A DNA stretch of 11,918 bases, from contig JBDRGX010000081.1 of NCBI GenBank assembly GCA_043817485.1, forward strand, positions 1-11,918. The letters are read 5' to 3'. A model generated the notes under the pieces. That model was not told the origin of the DNA. It did no database searches and was given only the letters and a program-made list of their open reading frames with translations. This stretch comes from JBDRGX01 sp043817485 [NCBI: bacterium]. GTDB lineage: Bacteria; JBDRGX01. Numbering within the stretch: position 1 is the stretch's first letter; every line of letters begins with the position of its first letter. Of this stretch, positions 4,580 through 11,584 are shown in pieces. The translations under genes were made by a program, and so were the position numbers.

Positions 4580-5344
4580 ATGAAAAATATTCCTAAAGTA
4601 AGTATTATTCTTCCTACATATAAAGGTAAATATATTCAACAATCTATAGATAATTGCTTAAATCAAACATATAAAAATATAGAATTAATTATTGTTGATG
4701 ATGCTTCTTTTGATGAAAAACTTGATGAAATTATTAATTCTTATGATAATAAAAAAATAAAATTTATAAAGCATAAAGAAAATAAAAAACTTCCTGAAAC
4801 TCTTAATACTGGTTTTTCAAATGCTACTGGAAATTATTTAACATGGACATCAGATGATAATTATTATGATTCTCAAGCAATAGAAATTTTAGTTAACTTT
4901 TTAGAAACACATTCTAAAATAGATTTTGTTTATACTAATTATTATGAAATTGATGAAAATGAAAAAATATTAAATAAAAAAGAAGTATTGTCTTCTGAAA
5001 ATTTAATTTATCATAATTGCATTGGGCCTTGTTTTTTATTTAGAAAAAAAGTGTATGAATCTATTGGTTTTTTTAATAAAGATTTTTTTGGAGCAGAAGA
5101 TTATGATTATTGGGTTCGTGTATATAAAAATCATTTTAAAATGAAAAAAATAGATAATTTTTTATACTATTATAGATTACATAAAAATAGTATGACGAAT
5201 CAATATTCTTCTATTATTTCTCTTAATACACAAAAAATAATAAAAAAATATTTTCCTTTAAAAAGTATAAAAACTAAAATACATTTAACAAAAATGTTTT
5301 TAAAAAAGGTTTTTAATTGTTTTTTTCCCTTAAAAAATAATTAA
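4580..5344 (+). CDS. Family 2 glycosyltransferase
   Basis: A cytoplasmic GT-A fold glycosyltransferase that transfers a sugar from a nucleotide donor during polysaccharide assembly. The sequence starts with KVSIILPTYKG, and the nucleotide-binding VDDAS has Asp40-Asp41. The metal-binding site is TSDDN (Asp92-Asp93), and the acceptor-side acidic motif is GAEDYDYW (Glu173-Asp174). The length of 254 residues is normal for a single GT2 domain, with no membrane span. The ATG is preceded by AAAGGA about 8 bases upstream (4566-4571). The next glycosyltransferase starts 5 bases after its stop, so they form a pair. The sugar and linkage cannot be told from sequence. Confidence 0.9.
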   Translation: MKNIPKVSIILPTYKGKYIQQSIDNCLNQTYKNIELIIVDDASFDEKLDEIINSYDNKKIKFIKHKENKKLPETLNTGFSNATGNYLTWTSDDNYYDSQAIEILVNFLETHSKIDFVYTNYYEIDENEKILNKKEVLSSENLIYHNCIGPCFLFRKKVYESIGFFNKDFFGAEDYDYWVRVYKNHFKMKKIDNFLYYYRLHKNSMTNQYSSIISLNTQKIIKKYFPLKSIKTKIHLTKMFLKKVFNCFFPLKNN

Positions 5345-5349
5345 ATATT

Positions 5350-6285
5350 ATGAATATACCTAATTTTAGTATAATTATTCTTAATTATAATGGATTGGAA
5401 TTACTCAAAGAATGTCTTTTTTCTGTTATTCAATCTGCTAAATATAGTAATAGCGAATATGAAATAATTATAGTTGATAACAAAAGTATTGATAAAAGTA
5501 TAGAATTTGTTCAAAATAATTTTTCTGAAATAAAAATTATTCTTCTTGAAAAAAATGAATATATGAAAGGATTTGTTTATGGAGTACAAAAAAGTAAATA
5601 TAAATATGTAATTTTGTTAGATAATGATATTAAAGTTAAACAAGATTGTATTCCATATTTACTTGAACATTTTCATGATAAAAATGTTTTTGGAGTAATG
5701 GGAAAAGTATTTCTTTTTGATAAAAAAACTATTCAAATTTCAGCACAAAAATCTATTTTCAAAAAAGGTTTTTTTCGTTTAGAAAAAAAAATAAATCAAA
5801 AAAAAACAACATCTACCTTTTATATTTCTGGAGGATCATCTGCTTATGATAAAGAAAAATTTTTAGCATTAGGAGGATTTGATGAATTATTTCAACCAGT
5901 ATGTTGGGAAGATGTAGATATATCATATAGAGCATGGAAACAAGGATGGAAATTAATATTTGAGCCTAATGCTATATTATATCATAAACTACATGGAACT
6001 TTCGGCAAAAAATATTCTTCAAAGGATCTTGAAAAATACAATTTAAGAAATCAATTTTTATTTATTTGGAAAAATATAACAGATATTAAAATACTTTTTT
6101 ATCACTTTTTATTTTTACCTTTGTGGTTAATAAAAAGTATACTTATTGGAAATAGTATTTTTTTAAAAAGTTTTATTGCAGCGTTGTTTAAAATACCATT
6201 AATTTATAAAAGAAAAAAAGAAAATAAAAAATCTAATATTTCAGATAAAAATATTTTACTTCTTACAAATGTAGAAAATTTATAA
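5350..6285 (+). CDS. Family 2 glycosyltransferase (rhamnosyltransferase/WbbL-like type)
   Basis: A second GT2 enzyme of 311 residues. It has FSIIILNYNG at the start, VDNKS around Asp43 and the DXD-type site LLDNDI (Asp91, Asp93). Further on, SGGSSAYDKE precedes GGFDELF and the WEDVDIS acidic motif (Glu187-Asp188), then GWKLIFEP. This order is that of WbbL-like rhamnosyl- and related O-antigen transferases. Residues about 245-285 are hydrophobic and probably anchor or dock it to the membrane. No clear ribosome site precedes ATG 5350. With a 5-base gap from the upstream gene, translation is probably coupled. The sugar donor is not decidable here. Confidence 0.88.
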   Translation: MNIPNFSIIILNYNGLELLKECLFSVIQSAKYSNSEYEIIIVDNKSIDKSIEFVQNNFSEIKIILLEKNEYMKGFVYGVQKSKYKYVILLDNDIKVKQDCIPYLLEHFHDKNVFGVMGKVFLFDKKTIQISAQKSIFKKGFFRLEKKINQKKTTSTFYISGGSSAYDKEKFLALGGFDELFQPVCWEDVDISYRAWKQGWKLIFEPNAILYHKLHGTFGKKYSSKDLEKYNLRNQFLFIWKNITDIKILFYHFLFLPLWLIKSILIGNSIFLKSFIAALFKIPLIYKRKKENKKSNISDKNILLLTNVENL

Positions 6286-6319: not shown

Positions 6320-6964
6320 TTATGCAGGAATAATTTCTAAAAACCAATTTTTATCTTTTTCTATTTTTTCTCCAATTTTAAACTCTACTGGTTTTTTAAA
6401 AATAGGACCATCATAAACAAAAGTATGATATTCTCCATTTTCTCCACAAACATCTATATCTAATGTTTTAATATCTGTTATGAAATTATAATCAATTTTT
6501 CTACCCAACCATTCTTTTCCTAATTTTTCTTTTTGCGTTGCTACTATAATTGCTTTAAATCCAGAATCAATAAATTCTTTTATTAATTTTTCTCTTTCTT
6601 CTTTCCATAAAGGTAATATTGGGTTTATGTTTTGCTCTTTACAAACTCTTTCTACCCAATCTCTATGTGGCTGTACATCAATATCTCCAAAAATACCATG
6701 AGTAATTTCTTTTTCTTTAAGTTCTAAAAGTGCTTTTTTGTATGTTTCTTCATAATTTTCCCAAGTAGTAGCTTTTTGAATAATTGAAACACCTATTGCA
6801 TCTGCTTGAGCTTTTAAAAAAATAGATTTTATTCCATGTGAACGAGAATATTCATTATTTTCTGCTATCATATTTAAAAAACAATAATTTTCAAAATTTT
6901 CTTTTTCCTTGTAAAAAGCCATTGTTCCATCTTTTCCTCCGCTCCAAGAAACAAATGCTTTCAT
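6320..6964 (-). CDS. Dph6-like ATP pyrophosphatase (diphthine-ammonia ligase family)
   Basis: A PP-loop (N-type ATP pyrophosphatase, HUP fold) protein of the Dph6 family. In eukaryotes and archaea Dph6 amidates diphthine on elongation factor 2. Bacteria lack diphthamide, so the bacterial substrate is unknown. Counting from the chosen start, the PP-loop SGGKDG is at 8-13, GDIDVQPHRDWVERVC at about 93-108, and the family hallmark GENGEYHTFVYDGPIF at about 174-189. The length of 214 residues is normal for the short form without extra C-terminal domains. An ATG four codons earlier (6974-6976) exists, but GGAG at 6971-6974 sits 6 bases before ATG 6964, so I choose the latter. It is the last gene of the - strand group, separated from the previous one by a repeat-rich spacer. 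Confidence 0.85.
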   Translation of the reverse strand: MKAFVSWSGGKDGTMAFYKEKENFENYCFLNMIAENNEYSRSHGIKSIFLKAQADAIGVSIIQKATTWENYEETYKKALLELKEKEITHGIFGDIDVQPHRDWVERVCKEQNINPILPLWKEEREKLIKEFIDSGFKAIIVATQKEKLGKEWLGRKIDYNFITDIKTLDIDVCGENGEYHTFVYDGPIFKKPVEFKIGEKIEKDKNWFLEIIPA

Positions 6965-6970
6965 ATTTTT

Positions 6971-6974
6971 CTCC
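6971..6974 (-). promoter_or_regulatory. Ribosome site deciding the Dph6-like start
   Basis: On the - strand GGAG is followed by AAAAAT and then ATG at 6964-6962. The alternative upstream ATG (6976-6974) overlaps this GGAG and is itself preceded only by AAGAATAAT. Confidence 0.55.
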
Positions 6975-7005
6975 ATATTATTCTTATTAAAATAAAATAA
7001 ATTTA

Positions 7006-7173: not shown

Positions 7174-7239
7174 AAAATCTAAAATTGCGATAAATTGGGA
7201 AATTTCATATTTTCTATTTTCAATCTAAAATCTAAAATT
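7174..7239. repeat. 13-base direct repeat overlapping a gene 3' end
   Basis: AAAATCTAAAATT is found exactly at 7174-7186 and 7227-7239, with a partial extra copy (CAATCTAAAA) at 7221-7230. The first copy contains the stop codon of the upstream gene (7179-7181). The second covers the codons just after its zinc ribbon. Confidence 0.65.
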
Positions 7240-8144
7240 CTTACATAGCCACAAATTTTACAATGAAAAGATGCTTTATTCATACCTGCTCCACAACCTA
7301 AACATTTATTTTCATCATTTTTAGAAAAAGGTATTTCTCCAACTTCTTTTCTATAAATTTCATAATAATAAAGATGTTCTTTATTAAAAAATTTTATTTT
7401 ATAAATATTCTTTTTTTCTTGAAATTCTTTATCAGAAATTTTTGCACTAATAATTTCTCTTATTTTTGTCATTCCAGATCCATATTCTAATGGTCTTTTA
7501 CTTTGCCAAATAATATGAGATGGAATTATATCTTCAAATGATTTTCTTAAAATCCATTTTCCATAACCATCTTTAATTTTAAATTCTGGTAAAATATTTA
7601 AAGCAAAATCAATAATTTCTTTATTTAAGTAAGGTTGAATTATTTTTATATTAAAAAAATTAGATAATTCATTAGAACTAAAAACAAAAAATGGAACTAA
7701 TTTTTCAATATAAGCATTTAAATTTTCTATTTTTGTCATAAATTCATATCCACCAAAAAGTTCATCAGCACCATCTCCAGTTAATATTTTTTTTATTCCT
7801 AAATTTTTAGCATATTTTAAAGCAAAATAAACAACTAAATCATTAGGAATTGCTGGATCAAAAGTTTTAAGAATTTTTATAACTTCTGGAATATAAGATA
7901 AAGCTTCATCGATAGATATAAATAAATGATGATGATTTTTTAAATTCAAATCCTCTTTTATTATATTAGAATATTTTAAATCTTCTCCAAAATTTTCTAA
8001 ACTAACAGTAATTGTTGAAGCATTCGGATTTAAATAAGCAAAAATACTTGTATCTAACCCACCCGAAAAAAGTATTGTTGCAGAAGAATTTATTTGAATA
8101 ATTTCTTTTATTTTGCTTTTTAAAAATGTCATTTTATCTATCAT
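7179..8144 (-). CDS. Asparagine-synthase-like ATP pyrophosphatase with C-terminal zinc ribbon
   Basis: A stand-alone synthetase domain of the asparagine synthase class. It activates a carboxyl group by adenylation for attack by ammonia, but it lacks the N-terminal glutaminase domain of AsnB, so it would need free ammonia or a partner. The PP-loop FSGGLDTS is at 26-33, TGDGADELFGGY at 122-133, and the substrate-side SKRPLEYGSGM at 215-225. Residues 281-298 form a CxxC-x10-CxxC ribbon (Cys281, 284, 295, 298), unusual for AsnB but seen as an added module in many small ligases. It overlaps the protease stop by 4 bases (ATGA), so the two are coupled. The last 19 residues are encoded by spacer repeats. 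The true substrate is unknown; asparagine is possible. Confidence 0.8.
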   Translation of the reverse strand: MIDKMTFLKSKIKEIIQINSSATILFSGGLDTSIFAYLNPNASTITVSLENFGEDLKYSNIIKEDLNLKNHHHLFISIDEALSYIPEVIKILKTFDPAIPNDLVVYFALKYAKNLGIKKILTGDGADELFGGYEFMTKIENLNAYIEKLVPFFVFSSNELSNFFNIKIIQPYLNKEIIDFALNILPEFKIKDGYGKWILRKSFEDIIPSHIIWQSKRPLEYGSGMTKIREIISAKISDKEFQEKKNIYKIKFFNKEHLYYYEIYRKEVGEIPFSKNDENKCLGCGAGMNKASFHCKICGYVRILDFRLKIENMKFPNLSQF

Positions 8145-9653: not shown

Positions 9654-10652
9654 TTAAACAAATTGTGAAATTCGTAATTTATATTCTAATATATTTTTTT
9701 TAATTTCTTCTTTATTAACAGTTGCAACACCTAATTTTCCTACAACAACACCAGCTGCATAATTAGAAATATAAGTAGCTTGTTTTTTATCAGCACCAGA
9801 TACAAGAGCCAAAGTAAAACAAGATATTACAGTATCTCCAGCTCCACTTACATCATAAACTTCTTGAGCCATAGTAGAAACAGAAGTAATGCTTCCATTT
9901 TTTTCAAACAAAACCATTCCTTTATCTCCCCTTGTAATAAGAACACTTTGACAATTAAGTTTTTTTAAAATTTTTTCACCAACTTTATAAAGAGATTTTT
10001 CATCAATTATTTTAATTCCAGTTATTTGTTCTGCCTCAGATTGATTAGGTGTAATAGTATCTACTTCTTTATAATAATTAAAATAATTTATTTTAGGATC
10101 TACTGTGATAATTTTTTTATTGGCTTTACATAAAGATAAAACATTTTTTAACAAATTTTGTGTAATTATTCCTTTTCCATAATCTTCAATAATAACTCCA
10201 TCTACTTCTTTAATTAAAGAAATAATATATTCAAGAATTTTTTTTTGTATAGAATGATTTACATTTTCGACTTTTTCTTTATCAAACCTTACTATTTGTT
10301 GATTATGAGCAATAATTCTTGTTTTAACAATAGTAGGTCTTGAAGAATCAATGATTAAACCATTATAATTAATAGAATTTTTACTTAATTCTTTTTTTAA
10401 AATTTGAGCATCTTCATCTTGTCCTATAACTCCACATAAAAAAGCAATTCCTCCTAAAGAAGCAATATTATTTGCTACATTTCCAGCTCCTCCAGGCATA
10501 TATGATTCTTTTGTTACTTTTACTATTGGAATAGGTGCTTCTGGAGAAATTCGAGAAACTTCTCCCCAAATAAATTTATCTAATAAAACATCACCAATTA
10601 CTAAAATTTTTTTCTTTTTAAAATTGTCTATTATTTTAAATAATTCTTTCAT
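9654..10652 (-). CDS. rfaE1: D-glycero-beta-D-manno-heptose-7-phosphate kinase (RfaE1/HldA)
   Basis: Phosphorylates heptose-7-phosphate at C1 on the way to ADP-heptose, the core sugar of LPS. The product is the kinase domain only: 332 residues, without the nucleotidyltransferase half found in fused HldE, which must be elsewhere. This is the PfkB/ribokinase fold. GEVSRISPEAPIPIV at 30-44 and PGGAGNVANN at 53-62 are typical of RfaE1. TPNQSEAEQITG lies at 201-212, and the signature DVSGAGDTVISCFT at 267-280 carries catalytic Asp273. The ATG overlaps the end of the upstream DHS-like gene by 17 bases and is preceded by GGGAG. This implies coupled translation. It supports an LPS-bearing outer membrane. 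Confidence 0.93.
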   Translation of the reverse strand: MKELFKIIDNFKKKKILVIGDVLLDKFIWGEVSRISPEAPIPIVKVTKESYMPGGAGNVANNIASLGGIAFLCGVIGQDEDAQILKKELSKNSINYNGLIIDSSRPTIVKTRIIAHNQQIVRFDKEKVENVNHSIQKKILEYIISLIKEVDGVIIEDYGKGIITQNLLKNVLSLCKANKKIITVDPKINYFNYYKEVDTITPNQSEAEQITGIKIIDEKSLYKVGEKILKKLNCQSVLITRGDKGMVLFEKNGSITSVSTMAQEVYDVSGAGDTVISCFTLALVSGADKKQATYISNYAAGVVVGKLGVATVNKEEIKKNILEYKLRISQFV

Positions 10653-11584
10653 TTATTTTCTCCCAAATAATATAACATAAAAGAGGAATCATTATTTCAT
10701 GATGACCTATAATATTGTATCCTTTTCCATCATTAGAAATAGGTCTTTTAACTACATTTTGTAATGGTCTATAATGAGAAATCATATCAAAATTTGCTGT
10801 AGTAAATCCTTTTACTTTATATCCAAGATTACGAGTAATATTAAGTGCTTTTAAAAATACTTCTGGCAAAATTACCGATGAACCAATATTTAAAAAAACA
10901 CCTCCATTTTCTAATTTTGAAATTGCAGAACAAAGAATTTTAAAATCAATAAAACTTAAATTTGCCATTTTTCCTGGATTAAAACAAGGATGTTGTTGAA
11001 TTACATCTGTACCTATAGCAATATGAACAGTAATAGGAACATCATATTTAATACCAGCTGCAAATAAACTATGTTCTTTATATTTTAAATTTTCTTTTAT
11101 AATAAATTTACCTATTGTTTCTCCTAATCCTTCTTTTTTAGAATATTTAATTGCTTTATGAATTAGCTCTGCTGTTTCTCCTTTTATTCCAAAATTTCCA
11201 TCTTTAAGCCCAGATTCTACATCTTCTGATGTTTTTCCTTGATATGCAATTTCAAAATCATGAATAAGTCCAGCACCATTTAATGCTATTGTTGTAATAA
11301 TTTTTTTTTTTCATAAGTTCAATTAAAATTGGATTTAATCCACATTTAATTACATGAGCACCCATAGCAAAAATAATTGGCTTTTGTTTTTGATAAGAAA
11401 TAATAATGTCATCAATTAAATTTTTGAAATCATTGGCTTTTAAAATATCAGGAAGGTAATCAATAAAATTTTTTAATAAAATATTTTTTTGAGGCTGTTT
11501 AGCAAAGTTTTTTATATTTACTTTACATTCTTTATTTTCTGATGAAAATTTTACTTTTTTTAAATCAAGAGGTTTATATTTCAA
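10636..11584 (-). CDS. Deoxyhypusine-synthase-like protein, frameshifted at an A11 run
   Basis: The reading frame runs from TTG 11584 to the A11 run, then continues one frame over to the stop at 10636-10638. Removing one A gives a continuous 315-residue protein. Successive recognisable blocks are AMGAHVIKCGLNPILIELM, then across the shift IALNGAGLIHDFEIAYQGKT, VPITVHIAIGTDVIQQHP, GGVFLNIGSSVILPEVFLK and NFDMISHYRPLQNVVKRP. This is a bacterial family that I take to share the deoxyhypusine synthase NAD-binding fold. The stretch corresponding to the catalytic VVKHH of true DHS appears to read VILPEVF, without the Lys, so hypusine synthesis is unlikely and the reaction is unknown. Its stop overlaps rfaE1. 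It is probably the first complete gene of that operon. Confidence 0.75.

Follow-up and report, generated by a model that had tools for sequence, protein, structure and literature searches.

A predicted deoxyhypusine synthase-fold protein family of heptose operons and its possible role as a replacement for HldD

Deoxyhypusine synthase (DHS) borrows its cofactor and does not consume it: in the mechanism set out in parts of PMC10042821 and PMC7226451, NAD oxidises the substrate, an imine intermediate forms on Lys329 and is reduced afterwards, and His288 acts as the proton acceptor and donor. The structures of DHS and of the cyclodeaminase AgrE have both been solved with NAD. NAD is borrowed by AgrE in a similar manner. 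HldD (RfaD), the canonical ADP-L-glycero-D-manno-heptose 6-epimerase and a protein of the SDR fold, epimerises C6 by a similar borrowing of the cofactor, with NADP.

The GSU2086 family (NF052581), represented by GSU2086 of Geobacter sulfurreducens, is described in NCBIfam as a 'hypothetical cytoplasmic protein in sugar biosynthesis operon', a name that assigns no function. Table 1 of PMC5585712, on Tn-seq of G. sulfurreducens during growth on electrodes, gives log2 values of −3.1 for GSU2085 (hldE), −3.2 for GSU2086 and −3.7 for GSU2087 (gmhA); since the genes lie in one operon, the defects may be polar. The stretch of DNA analysed here, referred to as the window, is a contig of 11,918 nucleotides (JBDRGX010000081.1, assembly GCA_043817485.1). 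It carries a member of this family and shares the heptose operon setting of GSU2086, but in the window a homopolymer interrupts the gene, which adjoins a stand-alone RfaE1 in place of HldE.

The split gene and its family

The gene lies on the minus strand in two frames. The N-terminal frame (11258..11584) has a TTG start, and its homology stops at a T run; the C-terminal frame (10636 to about 11313) contains GSSVILPEVFLKAL, HYRP, VVKRP and GHHE. The frame changes at 11 consecutive T (A on the coding strand) at 11301..11311; the window, with a GC content of 24%, contains no A or T run longer than this. The preliminary description of this DNA had also read through the break, giving 315 residues; the product has 316, with one extra Lys. 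The 17-base overlap between the end of this gene and the start of rfaE1 (10636..10652, minus strand) is as first described, the DHS-like frame ending at 10636. The rfaE1 gene, on the same strand at 9654..10652, encodes an hldA-type D-glycero-beta-D-manno-heptose-7-phosphate kinase, is open throughout, and matches PF00294 and TIGR02198 (9.7e-118; 393 bits against a cut-off of 345).

The repaired protein scores 378.2 bits against NF052581 (cut-off 250, E 3e-113), with residues 5–304 aligned to profile positions 1–299 of 301. This is its sole NCBIfam match at 0.01; TIGR02197 (HldD) gives no match in that scan, and a sequence relation to HldD was rejected. A Pfam scan gave no match at 1e-3. The profile search proposed in the preliminary description thus found a family for the protein, NF052581, and not PF01916, the DHS family. 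An alignment built from two plasmid relatives retrieved at least 540 confirmed matches from the genome collection, of which the best 80 were retained; because these were chosen by similarity to the query, the set favours Omnitrophota. The nearest relatives among the matches listed belong to Candidatus Omnitrophota, with 57% identity. No relatives were found in viral_contigs and phage sequences. In the PDB, a single-sequence search returned just one match, weak and to an unrelated enzyme, and a search with the family profile returned weak matches throughout, the best being 6lrh (E 0.013).

Could the window copy be a pseudogene, with no product from this particular record? The frame is broken at the 11-base run, and the alignment of relatives shows two private changes of the window copy at near-invariant columns. 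No stop interrupts the translation of any of the 55 aligned relatives, which makes the break unique to the window record within this set, and a MAFFT alignment with the read-through protein places a one-residue gap at the break site in both relatives. However, a homopolymer of 11 is a frequent place for sequencing error or slippage, protein-level conservation continues across both halves of the gene, with 57% identity to the nearest relative, and the adjoining rfaE1 and protease genes are both open. Private changes are also found elsewhere in the alignment, three in the row of L080 and 11 and 12 in two divergent plasmid rows, and judged by this alignment the two of the window copy are unexceptional. 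A pseudogene is therefore unlikely, and a sequencing error or slippage site is the likelier cause of the break than old decay of the gene.

Other genes of the window include a Wzm/Wzt-like polysaccharide ABC exporter pair (304–2454), below the NCBIfam cut-offs, and two glycosyltransferase genes (4580–6285). A Dph6-like ATP pyrophosphatase gene (6320–6976; PF01902, 190 bits), below the NCBIfam cut-off for diphthine-ammonia ligase, sits in this contig of bacterial appearance. The product of 7179–8144 has an asparagine-synthase-type domain without the glutaminase half, and its C-terminal stretch contains cysteine.

Fold and active-site region

The intact relative L003 stands in for the window protein in an AlphaFold2 model (53-row alignment, pLDDT 91.3). 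Its top Foldseek matches are deoxyhypusine synthases, and VIA-align gives Z scores of 20.3 to 8put, 19.9 to AgrE 6lrg and 19.2 to LOR/SDH 3c2q, with identities of 12–17% in the listed rows. The likeness to DHS (PF01916; 8put, 7cmc, 1dhs) extends over residues 20–313 of the model (rmsd 3.8 over 272 aligned residues for 8put), at 13–14% identity between DHS and the family. The DHS fold suggested in the preliminary description is supported by this model. PF01916 matches occur at E≤1 in 48/55 relatives (best 3.9e-9), and some reach its gathering score of 27, for example L003 with 27.1. When the family profile is compared with that of true PF01916 paralogs, the N-terminal half alone aligns (E 7e-6), including a (T/N)GA..HD motif in common; hhalign on the C-terminal halves of the family and these paralogs gave no usable alignment.

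The C-terminal NAD domain of AgrE/ArgZ and LOR/SDH 3c2q (PF21570 and relatives) also have a fold like that of the model. PF21570 matches in the relatives are weak (50/55 at E≤1, best 4.1e-7; L003 16 bits against a gathering score of 27), and 6lrh, the best weak PDB match of the family profile, belongs to this group. The GSU2086 family differs from AgrE/ArgZ in having no arginine-hydrolase domain and in its gene setting.

Of 43 carrier genomes examined, 11 have true PF01916 genes (E≤1e-10) separate from the GSU2086 gene. The 11 paralogs end in E-x-x-x-W-x-K, mostly E-A-x-S-W-G-K, with the Glu, Trp and Lys each present in 11/11, whereas the GSU2086 family does not have the SWGK motif. The models of L003 and of the DHS control, the latter a less reliable model (pLDDT 78) with poor confidence around the short helix, have the same order of elements: strand-helix-strand-short helix-strand-helix. 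By this order, VILPEVF of the window protein starts the first helix, at the place of VPKNF in DHS, which, by residue number, we take to be the human Lys287/His288 region. SWGK, the motif that contains Lys329, comes two elements after the VPKNF helix in DHS, and the earlier placing of the catalytic lysine at VILPEVF was rejected on that ground. The short helix of the GSU2086 family, VVxRP, has its Arg in all 55 relatives and in the window protein. Because this helix adjoins the SWGK place of DHS, the catalytic lysine is probably replaced by the Arg of VVxRP, a correspondence derived from secondary-structure order and not from residue-level superposition. The absence of the catalytic lysine thus probably stands, at a position other than the one first proposed.

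The HYRP and GHHE motifs are kept as first reported, in 50–55 of the 55 relatives for each residue scored: R277 and P278 in 55, Y276 in 53, H299 in 50, H300 in 55 and E301 in 53. An invariant lysine, K250 (55/55; numbered, as is H300, in L003), lies one helical turn past the P-E-V of VILPEVF. Three Arg and three Lys columns are conserved in at least 90%, and such columns would suit an anionic sugar phosphate; this charge argument is weak, since ten acidic columns are conserved equally well.

Heptose neighbours and the distribution of HldD

In 61 of 82 loci, rfaE1 is found downstream of the GSU2086-family gene at a distance of no more than 1 kb, a count which, like those that follow for these loci, is a lower bound in GC-rich loci, where the ORF picking misses genes such as the rfaE1 beside L051. 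The arrangement is found in 45/45 Omnitrophota, 8/10 Geobacterales, 3/3 loci labelled Deltaproteobacteria or Desulfobacteraceae, 2/2 Elusimicrobia, and 3/5 remaining loci (three Desulfuromonadales, two plasmids). No rfaE1 was seen within 1 kb in Zixibacteria (0/5), Poribacteria (0/6) and six other loci (0/6, including Chlorobi 0/1 and Ignavibacteria 0/1). The usual order in Omnitrophota is GSU2086-rfaE1-kdsB-kdsA-kdsD-kdsC, the kds names being assigned from Pfam. In the Geomonas phylum, 76 of the 89 genomes with both genes have gmhA no more than 1 kb from the GSU2086 gene, with a median of 60 bases between the profile matches, and rfaE1 is rare as a close partner (2/84). The pairing with rfaE1 in the preliminary description is borne out in Omnitrophota and is too narrow for the Geomonas phylum. 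Strict dependence on an rfaE1 neighbour was rejected, as the partner differs by phylum and is missing in some.

Two plasmid cassettes (L001 and L002) hold GSU2086-, HldE/RfaE1- and GmhA-like genes together, and loci such as L031 and L054 have the order gmhA-GSU2086-hldE. The gmhA and hldE genes do not always need the GSU2086 gene, since in four genomes (L252–L255), which group with Geomonas on the rpoB tree described below, gmhA lies directly beside hldE with no GSU2086 gene; two of them have HldD and two have neither. In the Geomonas genome G023, which carries the GSU2086 gene, gmhA adjoins a GmhB-like gene, so named from a HAD profile; as both of these genes are present, HldD alone seems to be missing. 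The Omnitrophota genome G269 has HldD and no GSU2086 gene. Its order is hldD-rfaE1-kdsB-kdsA-kdsD, with hldD about a dozen bases before rfaE1, in the slot occupied by the GSU2086 gene in other Omnitrophota. Such an in-place exchange was seen in one of 20 Omnitrophota HldD loci inspected, some of which end at contig edges.

Several further arrangements were noted in these loci. In 19/82 loci (for example L013 2907–3707), the 1 kb upstream of the GSU2086 gene includes a gene for DUF3108 (PF11306); these loci come from Zixibacteria, KSB1, Bacteroidota, Chlorobi, Ignavibacteria, Elusimicrobia, an uncultured bacterium and six Omnitrophota. At L113 1559–3148, a GSU2086 domain shares a single open frame with a portion of RfaE domain II; this is possibly a GSU2086/RfaE fusion, and what remains of HldE lies in a different frame. 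A divergent subfamily (L001 7149–10576, L002 6336–9417, L114, L116) occurs on plasmids and in genomes, also in one of the Chloroflexota, in cassettes that pair an atypical HldE or PfkB kinase with a SIS isomerase; the kinases of L002 and L116 have the nucleotidyltransferase domain first. The subfamily perhaps serves a different heptose or a use outside LPS. At L249 3477–5623, in a genome from the Omnitrophota sample, a DHS gene of PF01916 type lies directly against an HldD-like gene of low score.

In 43 carrier genomes, picked for having the GSU2086 gene, rfaE1 was found in 43 (E≤1e-40), gmhA in 41 (E≤1e-24), rfaE2 in 41 (E≤1e-20), and HldD over its cut-off in two; the locus L024 lies outside this count. 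The GSU2086 family was found in 0/14 named control genomes, and HldD over cut-off in two of them, E. coli and Caulobacter. We also used two phylum samples in which the gene was not a criterion save for each centre genome, 148 genomes of the Geomonas phylum and 145 of Omnitrophota. The former contains GSU2086 in 94, gmhA in 124, rfaE1 in 135 and HldD in 31. The GSU2086 gene is associated with gmhA (89/94 carriers versus 35/54 non-carriers, p 4e-6) and shows no association with rfaE1 in this sample (84/94 versus 51/54, p 0.38). HldD occurs in 8/94 carriers versus 23/54 non-carriers (p 1.8e-6; p=2.4e-4 with high-scoring HldD only), and among the 113 genomes with both gmhA and rfaE1 in 6/79 carriers versus 22/34 non-carriers (p 6e-10). 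The Omnitrophota sample contains GSU2086 in 48 and HldD in 86 at E≤1e-70, 83 of them over cut-off; HldD occurs in 5/48 carriers versus 81/97 non-carriers (p=5.8e-18 outside any tree; p=1.3e-5 with high-scoring HldD only). The two genes are thus nearly mutually exclusive, which is the strongest finding of the analysis: both are present in 6/113 of the Geomonas-phylum genomes with gmhA and rfaE1 and in 5/145 Omnitrophota genomes, and neither in 12/113 and 16/145, respectively.

Ten of the 94 Geomonas-phylum carriers have no rfaE1 match at 1e-60. There are 13 genomes without such a match, and 10 of the 13 have GSU2086 and gmhA (G046, G050, G125, G130, G134, G154, G163, G167, G185 and G186); their assemblies may be incomplete, or they may use a different kinase.

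The exclusion was also examined on an rpoB tree (FastTree, own script) of 110 of the 113 Geomonas-phylum genomes with gmhA and rfaE1, the three without an rpoB match being left out. The GSU2086 gene needs 14 changes on this tree and HldD 11. A Pagel test gives a likelihood ratio of 18.0 (p=0.0012), and none of 2000 simulated independent histories is as negative as the observed correlation of −0.62. The independent-pairs sign test on the same tree is not significant (about four opposite, none the same, median p 0.125), which indicates few independent switches.

Proposed function

The DHS fold, the heptose operon and the near-exclusion of HldD together make the GSU2086 protein best read as a replacement for HldD. 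We put forward, tentatively, that it is an NAD-dependent enzyme of the heptose pathway, probably a 6-epimerase and a non-orthologous replacement of HldD. An NAD-binding fold of the DHS superfamily would have been recruited to the D-glycero-D-manno-heptose pathway, in an enzyme encoded with RfaE1 in the window and with GmhA/HldE elsewhere. The substrate would be a heptose phosphate or ADP-heptose, C6 of which may be oxidised and then re-reduced on bound NAD, and the protein would thereby catalyse the step, epimerisation at C6, for which other bacteria use HldD. Its proposed role and pathway would be those of HldD, to which the protein is unrelated. That the DHS fold provides, in several Gram-negative phyla in which the final enzyme of the heptose pathway seems to be missing, a second and unrelated solution to the HldD reaction is a somewhat more tentative statement of the same proposal. 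The open-access literature searched yielded nothing that ties deoxyhypusine synthase to heptose, nothing on a non-orthologous replacement of HldD, and no LPS heptose configuration for carriers of the GSU2086 gene.

The near-exclusion of HldD would be equally expected if a different heptose were made, and the main rival is an enzyme that makes a heptose altered by oxidation, reduction, deoxygenation or some other change, which replaces the L,D-heptose of HldD. The synteny fits this equally well. The divergent subfamily lies in cassettes with atypical HldE/PfkB kinases and SIS isomerases, that of L002 beside pseudaminic-/neuraminic-acid-type genes and that of L001, on a Chloroflexota plasmid, beside genes for sugar transport; these settings suggest that more than one heptose is made. 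The hldD swap upstream of rfaE1 in G269 is, however, simplest if the product is the same, and we hold a different product to be rather doubtful. The linkage to gmhA would likewise suit a protein that acts at an earlier step, with sedoheptulose 7-phosphate or the product of GmhA as a possible substrate, or one that partners or regulates GmhA/RfaE1; the HldD exclusion would then mark lineage-specific types of pathway. That gmhA is tightly linked in one phylum and rfaE1 in another, and that there are few independent switches on the rpoB tree, speak for such a role. It is made improbable by the recurrence of the same exclusion in two phyla, with the Pagel result in the one tested, and by the four genomes in which gmhA adjoins hldE without a GSU2086 gene.

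The preliminary description had proposed a different reaction linked to LPS heptose or polyamine metabolism. The link to heptose is upheld by synteny, co-occurrence with gmhA, the published Tn-seq values in Table 1 of PMC5585712 and the near-exclusion of HldD, and no support was found for the link to polyamines. A true deoxyhypusine or homospermidine synthase, in a neighbourhood that is incidental, would agree with the fold and with the PF01916 matches in the relatives. Nevertheless, the SWGK motif, of which the Lys, Trp and preceding Glu are invariant in the PF01916 paralogs, is absent, those paralogs are separate genes in the carriers that have them, and the heptose linkage recurs; a polyamine role was rejected as very improbable.

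If the GSU2086 protein does replace HldD, a family of at least 540 genomic matches, so far without an assigned function, would gain a specific and testable role. It would also be, to our knowledge, the first protein of the DHS superfamily to use a sugar and not an amine. The case warns against labelling such bacterial proteins deoxyhypusine synthases. The replacement would also fill the missing HldD step in Geobacter-type genomes and in many genomes of Omnitrophota.
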